Shown here: one piece after another, positions 32,547 through 46,488 of the stretch
How positions within the stretch are numbered: the first letter of the stretch is position 1
Layout of the letters: each line of letters begins with the position of its first letter
Assembly: GCA_021608145.1 (NCBI GenBank)
Contig: JAKIHM010000001.1
Location: forward strand, 124,001 to 188,000
Length of the DNA: 64,000 nucleotides
Source: Thermovorax subterraneus
GTDB lineage: Bacteria > Bacillota > Thermosediminibacteria > Thermosediminibacterales > Thermosediminibacteraceae
Reading direction: 5' to 3'
Made by a program: the position numbers and the translations under genes
Notes under the pieces: model-generated
Seen by the model: only the letters and a program-made list of their open reading frames with translations
Database searches by the model: none
What the model was told of the DNA's origin: nothing

Positions 32547-33194
32547 ATGGAACTCTTATCCATTGGCGAAGCAGCGAAAAGATTAGGTGTACACCCGAAC
32601 AGGCTTCGGGCATGGGAAAAACAGGGACTAATCAGGCCTGTGCGGTTGCCCAGCGGCCAGCGGAGATACCCGGTGGAGGAAATCAACCGCATTTTAGGAA
32701 CGGGAGGGATAAAGGCGGAGCCGGACACGGTTGCCCTCTATGCTCGGGTATCTACAAAGGAGCAGGCTGATGCTGGAAATCTGGAGCGTCAGATGGAGAG
32801 GCTACGGGCATACGCGCAGGAGAAGGGTTACCGTGTGGTGGCGGAGTATACGGATGTAGCTTCGGGTTTAAACCAGAGCCGCCGGGGTCTGGAGCGTATG
32901 CTGAAAGCAGCCGAGAAGGGCGAGTTCAAGAAATTGCTCATCGAATACCCCGACAGGCTGGCAAGATTCGGGTATGCCTATTTGGAACGCCATCTTAAGC
33001 ACTGCGGTGTGGAGATAGAAATCACTTCGCAAAAGGAGCCCGAGGATGCACATACGGAATTGGTCCAAGACTTGTTAGCCATAGTAACTTCCTTTTCAGC
33101 CCGGCTATATGGCGCAAGAGGTGGCAGGAAAATCCGGCAGGGTTTTCGGGAGCTGATAAGAGATGCCGAAGAAACACAAGAAGGACAAATTTAG
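32547..33194 (+). CDS. tnpA: IS607-family serine transposase TnpA
   Basis: A 215-residue protein. Residues 1-50 are a MerR-like helix-turn-helix (LSIGEAAKRLGVHPNRLRAWEKQG) and residues 60-200 a small serine recombinase domain with the catalytic Ser in LYARVSTKEQADAGNLERQ and the IEYPDRLARFGYAYLE arginine region. This order is characteristic of IS607 transposases. ATG start; upstream bases (CTACCATAAAGGC) contain only a weak ribosome-binding site. The 3' end overlaps the tnpB-related gene by 32 bases, the usual IS607 arrangement. Confidence 0.95.
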   Translation: MELLSIGEAAKRLGVHPNRLRAWEKQGLIRPVRLPSGQRRYPVEEINRILGTGGIKAEPDTVALYARVSTKEQADAGNLERQMERLRAYAQEKGYRVVAEYTDVASGLNQSRRGLERMLKAAEKGEFKKLLIEYPDRLARFGYAYLERHLKHCGVEIEITSQKEPEDAHTELVQDLLAIVTSFSARLYGARGGRKIRQGFRELIRDAEETQEGQI

Positions 33195-34851
33195 CATGAC
33201 AGTTTGTGGAGAGTTCTTTCCGGAAGTTTACCCGGCCTTTCGTTCACAGAAATGGAGCCGTGGGGAGGAAGACCCTCTTGAGACGGAGATGCGCCTTTTC
33301 TGTGCCTGCCAGAGATGGGCCTTCAACCGGCTACTAGAGGGTGCATCCCGCGATGAAATTAAGAAGCTGGGGCAGGAACTCTTCGGAATCAACTCCCGCT
33401 ATGTGGACGATGCCAGGCTTAAGGCACAGGCCGTGCTGGACTCCCAAAAAGAGCTGCTGGAGCTGGAGATTGAGGAGACGGAAAACAAGCTACGCCGGGC
33501 GAGGAAGAAACTAAGCACAGCCATGAGAAAGTTGGTGAAAGCAGAGAGGAAAGGCGATGCCCCGGATATTGTTGAAAAACTCCGCATGGCAGTCAAGGGA
33601 CGGAACAACCGGGTAGCGTCTTTAGAGAAGAAGCTAGCCGAGCTTGAGGCTTACCGGGAGAATGGCACGATACCAAAGGTAGTCTTTGGCGGAAGAAAAC
33701 TCTGGGGAAAGGTCTGCAAGGGCCGGGCCACGCTGGAGGAGTGGCGAGCATCCCGCAAAAACCGCCTTTACTCCCGGGGAGACGAGACAAAAGGCGGCAA
33801 CCCTAACATCAAGGTATCCTTTGACGGGCGAGATTTCCGCTTGGCTGTCTCCATATCCCACCTTTCCCAACAGACAGGCACGGATAAACTTGGCCGCCCG
33901 AAGATGAGCAAAGCCCCCAGAGTAGAAGGGAGATTGTGGCTTCCGGAGAAGCACCAGGACCTGGTGCGGATATGGCTAGCTATCAAGCTGCCCTACACAG
34001 TAGAGCTGGTCCGCACCCCGCAGGACCGTTATATAGCGCATCTGACGTTCGATTTGGGCGGGATGAAGGAACCCGACTTTACTAAAGGTTGTATAGCCCT
34101 GGACATCAATCCTGACGGGATAGCCTTATGCAATGTAAGTGGTTTGGGCCAGCCTGAGCCGTGGCCGGAAGATTTTAAAATCCCTTACCCTGGCAACCTG
34201 GGCAAGTATGAGGGAGAGTTTCAGGTTATCACTTACCCGAACGGTTTTCTCTACATCAGGATACCCGACTTAGCCTATGCTTGTGGCTTTCGGAGGGACT
34301 ATCTGATAGGCGTTTTAGCCAAAGCAGTGGTAGACATAGCCTTCTTCTTAGGCAAGCCCATAGCCCTGGAGGAACTCAATTTTGCCAAAGACAGGCTGGA
34401 TACCAACAAAAAGTTTAACCGAATGGCTTCAAACTTTCCCTTTGCCAGGATGGTAGAAGCCATGTACCGGAGGGCTGTCAAGGAAGGAGTGCCCTTTAAG
34501 CTCGTATCTGCCCGGCACACGTCCACCATAGGCTACTGGAAATATACGAAGCGTTATGCCGTCCCAGTGCACTGCGCGGCGGCATTGGTTATTGGCCGCC
34601 GTGCGATGGGCTTTAAGGAACGGGTAACGAAAGAGCTTAAACAACTGGTAGTCCAAATCAAGCAAGACCTGACCTGCAAGGTCGATCCTAATACACCGAG
34701 GGAAGGAAGAGGGATGACCCATAGGGTTAGGGCCTGCTTGAGGCGGCTGGAGGAAAAGCTCCTTATGCACAACGGGCTTGCCCGGTGGCAGCAGGAGGCG
34801 TATTACTCCGTCTGGCACGACCTCAAGGAGCTTGCCCTGTCCTTACGGTGA
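33163..34851 (+). CDS. tnpB: TnpB-related protein of IS607 element, divergent RuvC site
   Basis: A 562-residue protein, much longer than typical TnpB (~400). An N-terminal region and a long coiled-coil (about residues 80-165, rich in LEKKLAELE-type heptads) precede the RuvC-like half. RuvC-I is probably CIALDINPDGIAL (Asp in LDINPDG) and RuvC-II is IALEELNFAKDR (Glu). At the RuvC-III position, where TnpB has D-x-NAA, the text is VPVHCAAALVIGRRAMGF with His instead of Asp, and no CxxC zinc finger is seen. It belongs to the clade often annotated as TnpB-related accessory proteins. True TnpB is an RNA-guided nuclease; whether this one cuts DNA is open. Confidence 0.85.
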   Translation: MPKKHKKDKFSMTVCGEFFPEVYPAFRSQKWSRGEEDPLETEMRLFCACQRWAFNRLLEGASRDEIKKLGQELFGINSRYVDDARLKAQAVLDSQKELLELEIEETENKLRRARKKLSTAMRKLVKAERKGDAPDIVEKLRMAVKGRNNRVASLEKKLAELEAYRENGTIPKVVFGGRKLWGKVCKGRATLEEWRASRKNRLYSRGDETKGGNPNIKVSFDGRDFRLAVSISHLSQQTGTDKLGRPKMSKAPRVEGRLWLPEKHQDLVRIWLAIKLPYTVELVRTPQDRYIAHLTFDLGGMKEPDFTKGCIALDINPDGIALCNVSGLGQPEPWPEDFKIPYPGNLGKYEGEFQVITYPNGFLYIRIPDLAYACGFRRDYLIGVLAKAVVDIAFFLGKPIALEELNFAKDRLDTNKKFNRMASNFPFARMVEAMYRRAVKEGVPFKLVSARHTSTIGYWKYTKRYAVPVHCAAALVIGRRAMGFKERVTKELKQLVVQIKQDLTCKVDPNTPREGRGMTHRVRACLRRLEEKLLMHNGLARWQQEAYYSVWHDLKELALSLR

Positions 34852-35103
34852 CCCCGTTTAGCCGGTGTCGGACAAACCGGTAGGCGTCCTAACAGGACGG
34901 CTCGGGCGGCGGTGAGAGCACACCGCCTCTACTCCGGTCAACTCTAGCCTGCGGGTGTTGAAAGACACTCCGTCAGTCCGTGCGGGCGAGTCTGGGGTAT
35001 GGGAGGGGATAACCTCTCCGTCCGGGTTCCGGGTGGGACTCCCGGGCCGAGGCCCCCTGTCGCCCTGCCCCTCGGAGGGCAAATCAAATATCCGGAAAGG
35101 AGG
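34852..35103 (+). ncRNA. GC-rich multi-hairpin RNA region, candidate omegaRNA of the IS607 element
   Basis: Directly after the tnpB stop lie at least six hairpins: CCGGT/ACCGG (34862, 34876), CGTCCT-AAC-AGGACG (34885-34899), GGCGGTG/CACCGCC (34908-34914, 34921-34927), GGAGGGG-ATAA-CCTCTCC (35002-35019, one G-U), CCGGG/CCCGG (35029, 35041) and CCGAGG/CCTCGG (35047, 35070). TnpB guide RNAs arise from the 3' end of tnpB and the right element end, so this fits an omegaRNA scaffold. The 361-base gap to the next gene holds this region and then about 110 bases in which I see no further feature. Confidence 0.55.
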
Positions 35104-35212
35104 CGAAATCCTGGTCTGGGGGCCGGCTTGGCTGGAGATAAAAACAGTCAAGTTTTTTGAACCAGGGCGGACCGTGTTCTGTGACAGAGACCGGCATTCT
35201 GGAAAAGAAAAA

Positions 35213-36916
35213 ATGCCTCCGTACATGCCCGATAATCCAAAAGATGAAGAAAGACATGCTCTCTTGTGGCATTCGTTAAAAGAAGGGGGCCGCCCCGAGG
35301 ACATAGATGAAGTAATAAAGGCCCTTTCACCTCCGCCCGATGTCACCACTGTTGCACCGCCCGGCCGCTTTAAAGGAATGAGAGTCGGTATAATCGGAGG
35401 AGGACAGGCTGGACTTGCCGCAGCCTTTGAACTCAGAAAGTTGGGTTTTGACATCACGGTTTTCGAGGCACTGAAAAGAATCGGCGGGCGCTTTTACACC
35501 TATTATTTTGACGAAGAAGAAAGGTATTACGGCGAGCTCGGGGCCATGAGGTTTCCAGTTTCCCACGAGACCACCTGGCATTATATTAATCTATTCGGAC
35601 TCAATACCCGGCCCTTCGTCCAGAACAACCAAAATGCCTTATTGTATATAAAGGGCGAGAGGGTGAGAAACGACCCGGAAGGCAGAAACGTTGTGAAAAG
35701 GATATATCCGAGATTTAACCTATCTCTGAATGAAAGGAGCACTCTACCGGCAGAACTTCTGTTTTACGCCCTCGAAAAGCCTCTTTTGAAGATGCCAGAA
35801 AGGATAAGACCAGAGATTGTTACGATAAGAGAAACATACAGCCCAGAGATACTATACCTTGATCGATACAGCATAAGAGGTATTCTCCAGGAGGCGGGCC
35901 TGAGCGAGGACGCCATAAGCCTTTTAGGGAGTCTTTCGCCCTTCGTGGGTTCCTTCCTCTATTACAACTACATGGAAATCCTTCAGGAAACGTACCCTTA
36001 CGATTTCGTTTTCCTTTACGAAATAGTGGGAGGTGCGGTAAGGCTTCCCAGGGCTTTTTACAGGTCCCTTATGGACGAAAGCCCTTCTGAATATAAGGGC
36101 ATCCCCAAAAACCTTCTGGGAAAGGTAACCTGGAAAAGCGGTGCTTATGTAGACGGAATATTCAGCCAGAGGCCCGACGGTAGGGTCACAGTAAGGTATA
36201 AATTTCACCCTTCGGGGGGCCACCTGCAGGAAGACTTCGACTTTGTGGTGTGTGCCATTCCCTTTTCTACCTTGAGAAAAGCCAAAATTGACCCGCTCTT
36301 TTCTTATAGAAAAATGCAGGCTATAAGGGAATTGGGCTACGCCCAGGCTCAAAAAAGCCTTATGTTTTGCAGATTCCGGTTCTGGGAAAAGGGTGGACCC
36401 GAGGAGCGGATAATAGGCGGCGGAAGCTACACGGACCTTTTGATATCCCAGATTTGGTATCCATCCGACCATGCACGGTTGGTAAAAGCCGGAGAATACA
36501 CTAGGTGGGATTTTCGCCCCGGCGCTTCTCCCGAGGAGCCGGGGGTGCTGCTTGCCTCGTATAACTTCACGCAGGATGCGGTAAGACTGGGCAATCTTTC
36601 TGAGGACATGGCCTTTGAGACCGTAAAAAGGCAAGTGGAAGAGGTGCATGGCCTTGCATGCGGCTATCTTGATGATGTGGCGCTCGAGTATGTGAGGGTT
36701 AACTGGGACGATGAACCGGCGCATCTCGGGGCCTTTTCGTACTACCTGCCCGAGCAAAAGAGAATATTCTCCTCTGCCGTGTCCCTTCCGGAATACAAAG
36801 GCCGGGTTTACTTTGCTGGGGAACATGTTTCTGGCACCCATGCCTGGGCAAACGGTGCCTTCAGGACCGCTATGCAGGCGGCTCTTGACATAGCGAAAAC
36901 CGCTTACAAAATTTAA
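35213..36916 (+). CDS. Flavin monoamine oxidase / L-amino-acid oxidase-like protein
   Basis: A 567-residue FAD enzyme. An N-terminal extension of about 55 residues (DERHALLWHSLKEGGRPEDI) precedes the dinucleotide-binding motif VGIIGGGQAGLAAAFELRKLG and the second FAD motif GGRFYTYYFDEEERYYGELGAMRFP (shown in part). The C-terminal FAD segment is GRVYFAGEHVSGTHAWANGA. This layout resembles tryptophan 2-monooxygenase and L-amino-acid oxidases, but the substrate is unknown. The frame is open upstream to 34955, inside the IS607 RNA region; ATG 35213 with weak GGAAAAG is the more credible start. The IS607 insertion lies immediately upstream and may have separated the gene from its promoter. Confidence 0.85.
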   Translation: MPPYMPDNPKDEERHALLWHSLKEGGRPEDIDEVIKALSPPPDVTTVAPPGRFKGMRVGIIGGGQAGLAAAFELRKLGFDITVFEALKRIGGRFYTYYFDEEERYYGELGAMRFPVSHETTWHYINLFGLNTRPFVQNNQNALLYIKGERVRNDPEGRNVVKRIYPRFNLSLNERSTLPAELLFYALEKPLLKMPERIRPEIVTIRETYSPEILYLDRYSIRGILQEAGLSEDAISLLGSLSPFVGSFLYYNYMEILQETYPYDFVFLYEIVGGAVRLPRAFYRSLMDESPSEYKGIPKNLLGKVTWKSGAYVDGIFSQRPDGRVTVRYKFHPSGGHLQEDFDFVVCAIPFSTLRKAKIDPLFSYRKMQAIRELGYAQAQKSLMFCRFRFWEKGGPEERIIGGGSYTDLLISQIWYPSDHARLVKAGEYTRWDFRPGASPEEPGVLLASYNFTQDAVRLGNLSEDMAFETVKRQVEEVHGLACGYLDDVALEYVRVNWDDEPAHLGAFSYYLPEQKRIFSSAVSLPEYKGRVYFAGEHVSGTHAWANGAFRTAMQAALDIAKTAYKI

Positions 36917-38487: not shown

Positions 38488-38934
38488 ATGAATCTGGTCG
38501 TGAAAAATGCAAGGGTAATAACGCCGTACGAGATTTTAGAAGGGCATGCGGTTCTGGTAAGGAATGGCATAATCTTCGATATCAAGAAGGACTTGCCCGA
38601 AGAAGGCGCCGATGCTGTAGTGGATGCAAGGGGATATTACCTGGGGCCGGGCTTTATCGACATCCACAACCACGGAAACTGCGGCAAGGACTTCATGGAC
38701 GCATCATTCGAGGCTTATGAGACCATGGCAAGGTTCCATTTGACCCACGGTGTCACCGGGTTTTTAGCTACCGTAATGACCGCGTCTTTCGCCGAAATGA
38801 AAAGGGCCCTTTCTGTGGCGGCAAGGTACATGAGAGAACAAAGCGGCGGGAAAAAGCGAGGATGCTCGGGATATATCTGGAGGGGCCCTATTTTTCACCG
38901 AAAAAAAAGGGGGCCCAACCTCCCGAACATATAA
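38488..38934 (+). CDS. nagA: NagA, N-terminal part (frameshifted gene)
   Basis: Encodes the first ~123 residues of N-acetylglucosamine-6-phosphate deacetylase: the metal-binding GPGFIDIHNHGNCGKDFMDA and the HGVTGFLATVMTA strand. After the A5 run at 38851-38855 the frame leaves the family sequence and ends in 25 unrelated residues. The family sequence continues in another frame from 38856. One more A in the run would join the halves. Start ATG 38488 follows GGTGAAAAT after nagB. Confidence 0.8.
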   Translation: MNLVVKNARVITPYEILEGHAVLVRNGIIFDIKKDLPEEGADAVVDARGYYLGPGFIDIHNHGNCGKDFMDASFEAYETMARFHLTHGVTGFLATVMTASFAEMKRALSVAARYMREQSGGKKRGCSGYIWRGPIFHRKKRGPNLPNI

Positions 38935-39650
38935 GAAAACCGGACGTAAAAGAGCTGCAAGAATTGACAGAGGCTTCCTGCGGTACCGTAAGAGTCGTGT
39001 CCCTCGCCCCTGAGGTGGAGGGAGCCGAAAACGCGATTGAGTTTTTGAAAGAAAAGGGGATTACCGTTGCTATGGGGCATACCGATGCCACGTACGAAGA
39101 GGCAAAAAGAGGTATAGAGCTCGGTATAACCCTTGCTACCCATACCTTCAACGGCATGAGGGGGTTTGAACACCGGGAGCCGGGTGCCGTGGGGGCATGT
39201 CTAACCGACGACAGGGTATACTGCGAGATAATATGCGACGGGATACACCTCAGCAAGGCCACCGTAGACCTTATAATCCGCGCCAAAGGCAGGGAAAAGG
39301 TTGTGCTGGTGTCGGACGCTATGATGGCGGCCGGGCTTTCCGATGGCGAATACACCCTTGGAGGGCAGAGGGTTTTTGTGAAAGGCGGGAGGGCGGCTTT
39401 GGCCGATGGCACTATCGCCGGCTCTACCCTTACCCTTGACAGGGCTGTAAGTTACTTGGTAAAGGAACTAGGGTTGCCGCTAAAAGATGCTGTCCGGATG
39501 GCGAGTTTAAATCCAGCGAGGGCCTGCGGGCTTGCCGGCAAGAAGGGCAGCATAGAGGTGGGGAAAGATGCCGACATGGTGATATTTGACGACAACCTGG
39601 ATATAAAAACTGTCATAGTGGGAGGAGAAGTTTTTAATTTTCGAAGTTGA
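38862..39650 (+). CDS. nagA: NagA, C-terminal part (frameshifted gene)
   Basis: About 262 residues with the rest of N-acetylglucosamine-6-phosphate deacetylase: YLEGPYFSPKKKGAQPPE (metal-binding Glu), TVAMGHTDATYEEA and THTFNGMRGFEHREPGA (metal-site His residues), CDGIHLSKATVDL and LVSDAMMAAGL (catalytic Asp). No ribosome-binding site fits the ATG at 38862, so it is probably not a separate protein. The complete gene would span 38488-39650, about 387 residues, the normal size. Confidence 0.8.
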   Translation: MLGIYLEGPYFSPKKKGAQPPEHIRKPDVKELQELTEASCGTVRVVSLAPEVEGAENAIEFLKEKGITVAMGHTDATYEEAKRGIELGITLATHTFNGMRGFEHREPGAVGACLTDDRVYCEIICDGIHLSKATVDLIIRAKGREKVVLVSDAMMAAGLSDGEYTLGGQRVFVKGGRAALADGTIAGSTLTLDRAVSYLVKELGLPLKDAVRMASLNPARACGLAGKKGSIEVGKDADMVIFDDNLDIKTVIVGGEVFNFRS

Positions 39651-40802: not shown

Positions 40803-41654
40803 TTGACAGCTTACACCGTGATAAAATCCTTCAACAACAACGTGGTGCTCGCAAAAGACGAAAAAACCAAAGAAGAGGCGGTGCTGGTCGGAAGGGGCAT
40901 AGGCTTTAACGTCCGCCCCGGAGACAAGGTGGATGAAACAAAAATAGAAAAGGTATTTTATTTTTTCGACAGGGACCAGTTCAGGCAATATGAAACTGTC
41001 GTAAGCCGCATAGATAAGCGTGTAATCGGAGTCGCCGAAGAGATAATAGCCATGGCATGTAGAGAATTTAAAACTCCCCTTAACGAGCACATACACGTGG
41101 CTTTGGCGGATCACATAAATTTCACCCTGGAGCGCCTCGCCGGAGGTCTTGAAATAAATAACCCTTTTCTCGACGAGATAAAGGTGCTGTATCCCGAGGA
41201 CTACGAGCTCGCCTGCAAAGCGGCGATGCTCATACAGGAAAGATTTGGAGTTGAAATTCCCGATGGAGAAAAGGGCTTTATAGCGATGCACATCCACTCT
41301 GCCAAGTCGAACAGGGAAATCTCCAAGACCGTGAAATACGCTTCGATGATAAACAAAATGATAGAGATAATTGAAGAGGAACTGGGGGAAAAAATCGAGA
41401 GGGATGGCATAAATTATGCGAGATTACTAGTGCACCTGAGGTTTACATTGGAGAGGATAGATAAGGACATTCCCATAAAGAACCCGCTTCTTGCCAATAT
41501 AAAAAAGGAGTTCCGTGGGAGCTATGATATAGCTAAAAAGCTAGGTAATTTTATTTACAATCGCATGGGCAAAAAAGTTCCTGAAGATGAGCTGGGGTAT
41601 CTTGCGCTGCATATCCACAGAATAAGCTTGTCTTTATCCGGAGAACAATTGTGA
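40803..41654 (+). CDS. glcT: BglG/GlcT-family transcription antiterminator
   Basis: A 283-residue protein: an N-terminal RNA-binding CAT domain (residues 1-57, VIKSFNNNVVLAKDE, VLVGRGIGF) and two PTS-regulated PRD domains (NEHIHVALADHINFTLERL with its His, IAMHIHSAKS; LLVHLRFTLERI, LALHIHRI). Members bind an RNA antiterminator to allow transcription of PTS genes and are controlled by phosphorylation from EII proteins. TTG 40803 lies six bases after GGGGGAG. A matching RNA target is present before the PTS gene at 46.7 kb, which supports the GlcT assignment although the genes are 5 kb apart. Confidence 0.88.
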   Translation: MTAYTVIKSFNNNVVLAKDEKTKEEAVLVGRGIGFNVRPGDKVDETKIEKVFYFFDRDQFRQYETVVSRIDKRVIGVAEEIIAMACREFKTPLNEHIHVALADHINFTLERLAGGLEINNPFLDEIKVLYPEDYELACKAAMLIQERFGVEIPDGEKGFIAMHIHSAKSNREISKTVKYASMINKMIEIIEEELGEKIERDGINYARLLVHLRFTLERIDKDIPIKNPLLANIKKEFRGSYDIAKKLGNFIYNRMGKKVPEDELGYLALHIHRISLSLSGEQL

Positions 41655-41670: not shown

Positions 41671-41763
41671 TTGTATCAATATTAGACAATTTTTATCTTT
41701 ATTTTTTTGCCCAAAATGTATCAATATGAGACAATATATTAAAGTTGTTTCATATTGATACGA
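41671..41763. promoter_or_regulatory. Three enhancer (UAS) repeats for a sigma-54 activator
   Basis: TTGTATCAATATTAGACAA (41671-41689), ATGTATCAATATGAGACAA (41716-41734) and, inverted, TTGTTTCATATTGATACGA (41745-41763) share the imperfect palindrome TGTMTCA-N3-TGAKACA. They lie 60-170 bases before a -24/-12 promoter, the usual place for binding sites of enhancer-binding proteins. The likely protein is the PAS-AAA-HTH regulator at 45130. Confidence 0.8.
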
Positions 41764-41824
41764 ATTTTATTTTTTTGCAATTATTATGCCTATGTAAAAT
41801 CGCGAAAAGTCAAAATTGAGATTG

Positions 41825-41840
41825 TGGCATGAAGATTGCA
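41825..41840 (+). promoter_or_regulatory. Sigma-54 (-24/-12) promoter of the tryptophanase operon
   Basis: TGGCAT-N5-TTGCA matches the sigma-54 consensus TGGCAC-N5-TTGCA at 10 of 11 fixed positions, with GG and GC at the correct distance. The transcription start would be near 41851, 42 bases before the tryptophanase ATG. Confidence 0.85.
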
Positions 41841-41892
41841 AGTAAAACTTTATCGAACGTAAAAAATTTATAAACCAAAAGGAGGCATTAAG

Positions 41893-44955: not shown

Positions 44956-44971
44956 ATTTGTTTGCGGAATA

Positions 44972-45026
44972 AAAAGCCTCTAGAGTTCGGCAACGTAGGG
45001 CTTGCCAGCTCTAGAGGCTCTTTTTT
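44972..45026 (+). terminator. Terminator after the tryptophanase operon
   Basis: AGCCTCTAGAG (44975-44985) pairs perfectly with CTCTAGAGGCT (45009-45019) across a 23-base loop, with an A-run before and six T after. It can act in both directions. Confidence 0.85.
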
Positions 45027-45129
45027 GAGTAGATAATTTATGGAAATAAAAGGAAAAGAGGACTGGTATAGAAATGTGATAAAATAGAAGTACCTGGGCC
45101 TGATATTTGGGGCGGAAAGGGGTGTGCCA

Positions 45130-46488
45130 GTGAAAATCCTTTCCGAAATGATAAATAGCATTGAAATCATTCTAAACCACGTCCATGAGGGAATAGTAAT
45201 TGCCGACAGGGATGGAAAAGTGCTCTATGTAAACGAAGCAAATGAAAGGATCACCGGCCTTGAAAACAGCAAGATTTTGGGGAAATATGTAAAAGATGTG
45301 GCGCCGGAATCCTCCATCCCCGAAGTGATAAAAACCGGGAAGGAAAAGCTCGGGGTAAAGACCCGTGTAAACGACCGGTACGTAATTTCCAATATAGTGC
45401 CTATAAAGGACAAGGAGAGCGACGAATTAATAGGAGCTATCTCGGTCTTTCTGGATATCACGGAACTTGAGACTTTAAACGCAAGGCTTATGAAAGCCCA
45501 AGAAAAGATAAATAAGCTTTCCCTTCAGCTTTCTAGCTTCATAGGAAACGAAGAGCCAATAATTGGCAAGAACGCAAAAATGCAAAAGGCTTTTTCCCTT
45601 GCGTTAAAAGCGGCCAATGTAAATTCTAATGTGCTGATAATAGGGGAAAGCGGCACCGGTAAGGAAGTGGTGGCAAAATTCATCCACGAAAAAGGCACAA
45701 GAAAAAATAAACCCTTCGTTGCGGTAAACTGCGGGGCTATACCCGAAAACCTTTTGGAGAGCGAACTTTTTGGATACGAAGCGGGTGCCTTCACAGGAGC
45801 ATCATCTAAAGGCAAGCCCGGTCTTTTTGAACAGGCAAACGGTGGGACGATTTTCCTCGATGAAATAGGAGATATGCCTTTTGCTTTGCAGGTAAAACTC
45901 TTAAGGGTCTTGCAGGAAAAGGAGATTATGAGGGTAGGGGGTACACAGAAAATAAAACTGGATGTAAGGGTGATAGCAGCTACTAACAGGGATATAGAAA
46001 CGATGGTAAAAGAAAAGAAGTTCAGAGAAGACCTGTATTACCGTTTGAACGTAATAAAAATAGACCTTCCGCCTTTAAGGGAAAGAAAGGAAGACCTCCC
46101 CCTTTACATTTCCTATTTTTTGAACAAACTGTCGTCAAGGCTCGGGAAGGAAAAGCCGAAGGTCACATCATCTGCAATGAAATTGCTTTTGAATTACGAT
46201 TATCCGGGGAACATCAGGGAACTTGAAAATATCCTGGAAAAAAGTCTCATCATCGATGATGACGGCTCGATAACCGTAGAGGACCTGCCCGAGTACCTTC
46301 TAAAGGGAAACACTTATAAATATTTTGATTTGCTTAAAGAGCGATGGCCGAAGCTTTATGAAATAGAAAAAAGCGTTATAGAAGAGAGTATAAGGGTTTT
46401 TAAAAATAAAACGAAGGTTGCGGAAATTCTGGGTATCCCCCGCTCCACCTTATATAGAAAAATAAAGGAATACGGAATAAAATGCTGA
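45130..46488 (+). CDS. Sigma-54-dependent transcriptional activator with PAS domain
   Basis: A 452-residue activator. Residues 8-115 are a PAS domain (HEGIVIADRDGKVLYVNEA), residues about 145-370 an AAA+ domain with Walker A GESGTGKEVV, the sigma-54-contacting GAFTGA loop, Walker B GGTIFLDEIGD and the arginine-finger region, and residues about 415-452 a Fis-type helix-turn-helix (KTKVAEILGIPRSTLYRKI). GTG 45130 follows AAAGGGG. It lies just downstream of the sigma-54-controlled tryptophanase operon and is the best candidate to bind the three upstream repeats; its PAS domain may sense the inducer or redox state. Confidence 0.93.
   Translation: MKILSEMINSIEIILNHVHEGIVIADRDGKVLYVNEANERITGLENSKILGKYVKDVAPESSIPEVIKTGKEKLGVKTRVNDRYVISNIVPIKDKESDELIGAISVFLDITELETLNARLMKAQEKINKLSLQLSSFIGNEEPIIGKNAKMQKAFSLALKAANVNSNVLIIGESGTGKEVVAKFIHEKGTRKNKPFVAVNCGAIPENLLESELFGYEAGAFTGASSKGKPGLFEQANGGTIFLDEIGDMPFALQVKLLRVLQEKEIMRVGGTQKIKLDVRVIAATNRDIETMVKEKKFREDLYYRLNVIKIDLPPLRERKEDLPLYISYFLNKLSSRLGKEKPKVTSSAMKLLLNYDYPGNIRELENILEKSLIIDDDGSITVEDLPEYLLKGNTYKYFDLLKERWPKLYEIEKSVIEESIRVFKNKTKVAEILGIPRSTLYRKIKEYGIKC

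Follow-up and report, generated by a model that had tools for sequence, protein, structure and literature searches.

Tryptophanase operon and adjacent activator gene

The window, meaning the whole 64-kb stretch analysed here of DNA from Thermovorax subterraneus, a heat-loving clostridium, carries a tryptophanase gene (tnaA) followed on the same strand by genes for a transporter and a small membrane protein, a terminator-like hairpin and the gene of a sigma-54 activator (Table 1). The gene upstream of tnaA encodes a GlcT-type antiterminator (glcT) and ends at 41654.

Table 1. Features of the tnaA locus and its control region (positions in the window)
Feature	Position	Strand	Sequence	Remarks
UAS1, distal predicted activator site	41672..41688	+	TGTATCAATATTAGACA	1 mismatch, centre 41680, conserved in relatives
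UAS2, middle predicted activator site	41717..41733	+	TGTATCAATATGAGACA	0 mismatches (exact consensus), centre 41725
UAS3, proximal predicted activator site	41746..41762	+	TGTTTCATATTGATACG	2 mismatches, centre 41754
Sigma-54 -24/-12 promoter	41825..41840	+	TGGCATGAAGATTGCA	TGGCAT-N5-TTGCA, exact; sole exact match in the window
tnaA ribosome-binding site	41880..41885	+	AGGAGG	
tnaA, tryptophanase, 463 aa	41893..43284	+		Subfamily profile NF009709
Sodium:neurotransmitter-symporter-family transporter, 510 aa	43314..44846	+		
Small membrane-protein frame, 33 aa	44854..44955	+		MetS-like transporter small subunit, PF16951
Strong terminator-like hairpin	44971..45026	+		End of tnaA operon
Sigma-54 activator, 454 aa	45124..46488	+		PAS, AAA+ (PF00158), Fis-type HTH (PF02954)

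The tnaA product scores 751 bits against its tryptophanase subfamily profile (cut-off 285), and lies below the cut-offs of the tryptophanase equivalogs TIGR02617 (656 versus 825.8) and NF053783 (653 versus 750) and also below that of tyrosine phenol-lyase (TIGR02618, 661 versus 720.7). Alignments to the solved enzymes 1ax4 and 1c7g show substrate-site residues of the tryptophanase type (HFDTT and RAVEV/IG), the tyrosine phenol-lyase counterparts being YFTTT and RSMERG, and the tryptophanase-type residues are likewise found in nearly all activator-linked enzymes. On these residues we rejected a tyrosine phenol-lyase identity, and tnaA is predicted to encode a tryptophanase.

The transporter is likely to import tryptophan, a substrate assigned from the position of its gene. 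Among solved structures it comes closest to SLC6 transporters of animals, with about 254 bits for the Drosophila dopamine transporter, and LeuT and MhsT are absent from its 60 best matches. The 33-aa frame scores 15.5 bits against the Pfam family PF16951 (MetS), which is under the cut-off of 26.2. Downstream of it, the stretch 44961-45045 folds at -33.5 kcal/mol and is followed by TCTTTTTT; with this terminator-like hairpin before its gene, the activator probably has a separate transcript.

The activator has the features of a bacterial enhancer-binding protein, namely a sigma-54 interaction AAA+ domain (253.6 bits) with the Walker A motif GESGTGK and the GAFTGA loop, and a Fis-type HTH (47.1 bits). 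The first-pass annotation had placed a PAS-type GAFTGA activator two genes downstream of tnaA; the activator is indeed there, but the 33-aa frame and the hairpin also intervene. A search of plasmids with the activator gave no match of at least 60% identity.

Elsewhere in the window, nagA (38488-39650) is split into overlapping frames (38488-38934 and 38862-39650) in a manner resembling a frameshift or a sequencing error, and a 562-aa frame (33163-34851) upstream of an amine-oxidase-like gene (34955-36916) has, by eye, a TnpB/OrfB-type transposase-associated look.

Three palindromes upstream of a -24/-12 promoter

Using the 17-bp palindromic consensus TGTMTCA-N3-TGAKACA, derived from the window alone, we found three sites with at most two mismatches in the 64 kb, all in the tnaA control region, compared to 0.20 +/- 0.43 expected; this number was reached by none of 100 shuffles. 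The three palindromes announced by the first-pass annotation are at the centres claimed and beyond chance in number, while the consensus quoted for them holds exactly for the middle site and not for the first and third, which deviate by one and two mismatches. In pattern-based scans of the 2.45-Mb genome, only three further two-mismatch sites were found elsewhere, each of them single. The site centres lie at about -171, -126 and -97 from a transcription start predicted near 41851, inside the 80-250 bp range of activator sites, and the centre of UAS3 precedes the -24 element by 71 bp. Furthermore, an identical 13-nt stretch, TTTATTTTTTTGC, follows sites 1 and 3 (41698-41710 and 41766-41778, 68 bp apart), which suggests that the enhancer grew by internal duplication.

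The -24/-12 promoter was likewise confirmed as an exact match with the correct GG-N10-GC spacing. Taken alone, one-mismatch versions of this element are at chance level in the window (5 versus 4.3 expected). Genome-wide, however, the pattern TGGCAYN5TTGCW has 22 matches versus one for the reversed control pattern, indicating that as a class such elements are real promoters in this genome, which also encodes the sigma-54 gene rpoN (PF04552, E 1.7e-63). The tnaA leader is about 42 nt long and unfolded, with no room for a TnaC-like peptide.

Conservation of sites, promoter and gene pair in relatives

An orthologue of the activator is present in 14 of 61 genomes, in two families, at 62-100% identity, the next paralogues reaching at most 49%. 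It adjoins tnaA in all 14, usually on the upstream side but on the downstream side in the window's own genus, and each of the 14 tnaA upstream regions contains a -24/-12 element together with two or three recognisable palindromes. The sites and the promoter are thus kept beside the tnaA-activator pair, a link that survives the change in gene order. Among five close relatives, 61% of the palindrome columns are invariant versus 25% of the spacer columns (p = 4e-5), as are 10 of the 11 promoter columns. The start-to-start distances between sites in relatives cluster at 29-33, 41-45 and 62 bp, a periodicity of about 10.5-10.75 bp that corresponds to the DNA helix (Rayleigh p < 1e-4, with no correction for relatedness).

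In the tree, the activators linked to tnaA fall into a single clade (100/100 support), separate from paralogues that include those from genomes whose tnaA lacks the sites. The sampled members of the clade adjoin tnaA on one side or the other, with one unlinked case, and all 21 have the Walker A and GAFTGA motifs. Seven PAS residues (N40, R42, T80, V82, S89, N90 and I91) hardly vary within the clade and are rare among the paralogues, suggesting a signal common to the clade; tryptophan or indole would be the natural guess.

Single sites with zero or one mismatch occur elsewhere in relatives; at the loci examined they have no sigma-54 promoter nearby and were rejected as further targets, and the regulon is probably one operon.

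Two local peculiarities were observed among the relatives. In Thermosediminibacter litoriperuensis (G008, locus L009) the recognition helix of the activator is seemingly out of frame near a T run, giving an altered C-terminus beside intact sites and promoter, by either a frameshift or a sequencing error. In the Lutispora group (L166, L168 and L171) the gene directly before tnaA has a chemotaxis-receptor-like end, which in Lutispora is positioned between activator and tnaA.

Palindromes and promoter follow the activator clade

We compared 88 tnaA loci with sufficient upstream sequence, 20 of which have an adjacent clade activator and 68 do not. The palindromes were found at 19 of the 20 and at 2 of the 68 (Fisher 5e-16; the loci used to train the site matrix are included in these counts), and the -24/-12 element at all 20 and at 4 of the 68. 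The search of relatives proposed by the first-pass annotation thus holds in both directions: sites and promoter accompany the activator clade, and are almost never found without it. One of the two loci having sites and no adjacent activator (L171) belongs to a genome in which a clade activator, 86% identical to that of Lutispora, is encoded on another contig. The other (L168) lies on a short contig of a draft MAG, a genome in which a clade activator was not found. Conversely, L176 has a clade activator and weak sites.

Within the same family, genome G006 encodes an 87% identical tnaA without activator, sites or promoter. Caldanaerobacter-type tnaA loci (L115 and L116, 84-86% identity) also have neither activator nor sites, and the translated end of the preceding gene is RidA-family-like. 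At the Maledivibacter halophilus tnaA (L173), a sigma-54-type promoter, TGGCATAATAGTTGCT, stands beside an adjacent activator from outside the clade (41% identity); from its sequence, this locus may represent an independent recruitment of sigma-54 control.

Furthermore, a second search, in 398 genomes of the phylum, returned one new, distant member of the clade (G381, 48%). In its neighbourhood, fetched afterwards, the activator gene is followed by a pair of palindromes at a distance of 32 bp, then by TGGTATGATCCTTGCT and tandem tnaA copies; the -24/-12 element has the form TGGTAT-N5-TTGCT. An insertion-sequence-like gene lies between the two tnaA copies.

Because the Fisher and Rayleigh values take no account of shared descent, the number of independent events is smaller than the counts. 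The altered gene order, the lack of activator and sites in G006, the unlinked activator and the occurrences in Paenibacillus and Calditrichales are nonetheless separate events.

Alternative explanations

With the palindromes nearly confined to loci that have the activator gene, the activator is very probably a dedicated on-switch of tnaA. We considered whether the palindromes might instead be bound by a regulator other than the product of 45124-46488, be it another sigma-54 activator or a repressor. About 22 more matches of the activator type lie elsewhere in the genome, which makes cross-activation possible, and the binding of the sites by the adjacent activator is itself predicted. Yet the sites track the clade through rearrangement, the absence in G006, the unlinking of L171 and the blind test of G381, and no palindrome with two or fewer mismatches was found at C3, a paralogue locus that has two sigma-54 promoters. 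We consequently regard another regulator as unlikely.

It is less probable still that most transcription of tnaA starts at a sigma-70 promoter, with the sigma-54 element minor or vestigial. A sigma-70-like match of 9 of 12 positions does lie at 41755-41784, but the sigma-70-like matches of the region show no excess over chance (9 versus 9.5 expected), and the -24/-12 element is nearly invariant in close relatives and present at every activator-linked locus.

Finally, the idea that sites 2 and 3 are an RNA hairpin terminating the upstream glcT, or another leader RNA, can draw on their pairing in this genome, where they fold into a stem of 19 pairs (-23 kcal/mol) with a T-rich tract after it, and on the end of glcT at 41654, but we rejected it as hardly credible, because the stem is strong only here (z -8.4) and weaker or absent in eight relatives, mostly without a T tract, the sites persist even at loci whose upstream gene encodes the activator, the element is upstream of the promoter and outside the tnaA transcript, and two near-palindromic copies pair automatically.

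Proposed mechanism

Collectively, these results point to a tnaA control region made of a sigma-54 promoter and palindromes bound by the activator encoded at 45124-46488, a reading in which binding and RpoN dependence are predictions from sequence and to which we assign a probability of roughly 0.88. Under this model, an operon of tryptophan catabolism (tnaA, the symporter gene and that of the small membrane protein) would be transcribed by sigma-54 RNA polymerase from the promoter at 41825-41840. Dimers of the one-component activator would bind the three 17-bp palindromes, oligomerise into an ATPase ring and loop to the promoter, where ATP hydrolysis would drive the opening of the closed sigma-54 polymerase complex. 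The signal read by the PAS domain is probably tryptophan, indole or something related to them, in which case the enzyme and its uptake system would be made only for the degradation of tryptophan. The identity of the effector, like the substrate of the transporter, is an inferred part of this explanation. The activator appears to be dedicated to this single operon and to form its own transcription unit here.

A broader proposal, to which we give rather less than even odds and which we offer tentatively, is that the clade consists of widespread, horizontally spread tryptophan- or indole-sensing PAS sigma-54 activators present in several Bacillota lineages, in Calditrichota and probably in Symbiobacterium, a model producer of indole. 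If so, a direct sensor would govern the production of indole, and indole might prove to induce its own synthesis via sigma-54.

Tryptophanase cleaves tryptophan to indole, a widely studied bacterial signal. To our knowledge, the control of tryptophanase outside enterobacteria has been little described. The tnaA locus supplies a defined regulator, sites and promoter that are directly testable, and the PAS domain of the activator is a candidate tryptophan or indole sensor.

Comparison with known systems

In E. coli, the tnaCAB operon, with a tryptophan transporter gene after tnaA, is induced for tryptophan breakdown and controlled by cAMP-CRP and by attenuation at the TnaC leader. Both operons thus have a transporter gene after tnaA; unlike that of E. 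coli, the operon described here has a sigma-54 promoter and its short leader lacks the characteristics of TnaC attenuation. In enterobacteria, the PAS/AAA+/Fis-HTH protein TyrR, which has an ACT domain and acts with sigma-70 at its targets, controls tyrosine phenol-lyase. The activator resembles TyrR in being a PAS/AAA+/Fis-HTH protein that would control a beta-eliminating lyase of the same enzyme family, but differs from it in retaining GAFTGA. It is not a member of the TyrR family (271.9 bits versus the NF008085 cut-off of 576), and N-terminally only a PAS domain was found. The nearest curated family is PrdR (NF041552), whose domains follow the same order over the aligned region (profile 129-577) and whose sites are of the same class; membership was rejected here too (495.5 bits versus a cut-off of 795), and PrdR targets proline reductase whereas the predicted target of this activator is tryptophanase.

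In enteric bacteria, the putative sigma-54 activator IsrR/YgeV has been tied to indole and tnaA; it is indole-responsive, its targets are virulence genes, and it is not described as a direct activator of tnaA (PMC9426417). In the literature searched, which was mostly non-subscription, we found no report of a tryptophanase that a dedicated activator places under sigma-54 control. The main text of the D. vulgaris regulome has no tryptophanase (PMC4641369), and in the Clostridiales survey of Nie et al. (2019, PMC6615313) tryptophanase is the target of none of the 39 listed groups, the words "tryptophan" and "tnaA" not occurring in its main text. The first-pass annotation knew of no description of this circuit, which agrees with our searches for the circuit itself; its kind and its class of sites, however, are well known from that survey (PMC6615313).

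As presented there, the 39 reconstructed sigma-54 activator groups have the same layout as the tnaA locus, and include the one-component activators of amino-acid catabolism PrdR, MdeR, OrdR, HiaR, CdsR, LeuR and ZypR; for fifteen groups, PrdR and MdeR among them, the sites are TGT/ACA inverted repeats 10-12 bp apart (PMC6615313). The tnaA sites, of the form TGT-N11-ACA with an 11-bp spacer, fall within this class. In the Clostridiales regulons, the activator usually lies beside its target operon, which is often single, with multiple sites upstream of the -24/-12 element (PMC6615313); the tnaA locus shares this arrangement. The circuit is therefore a new, apparently single-operon case of a familiar form of control whose mechanism type is already known, and with it tryptophan would join the amino acids whose clostridial breakdown is under sigma-54.
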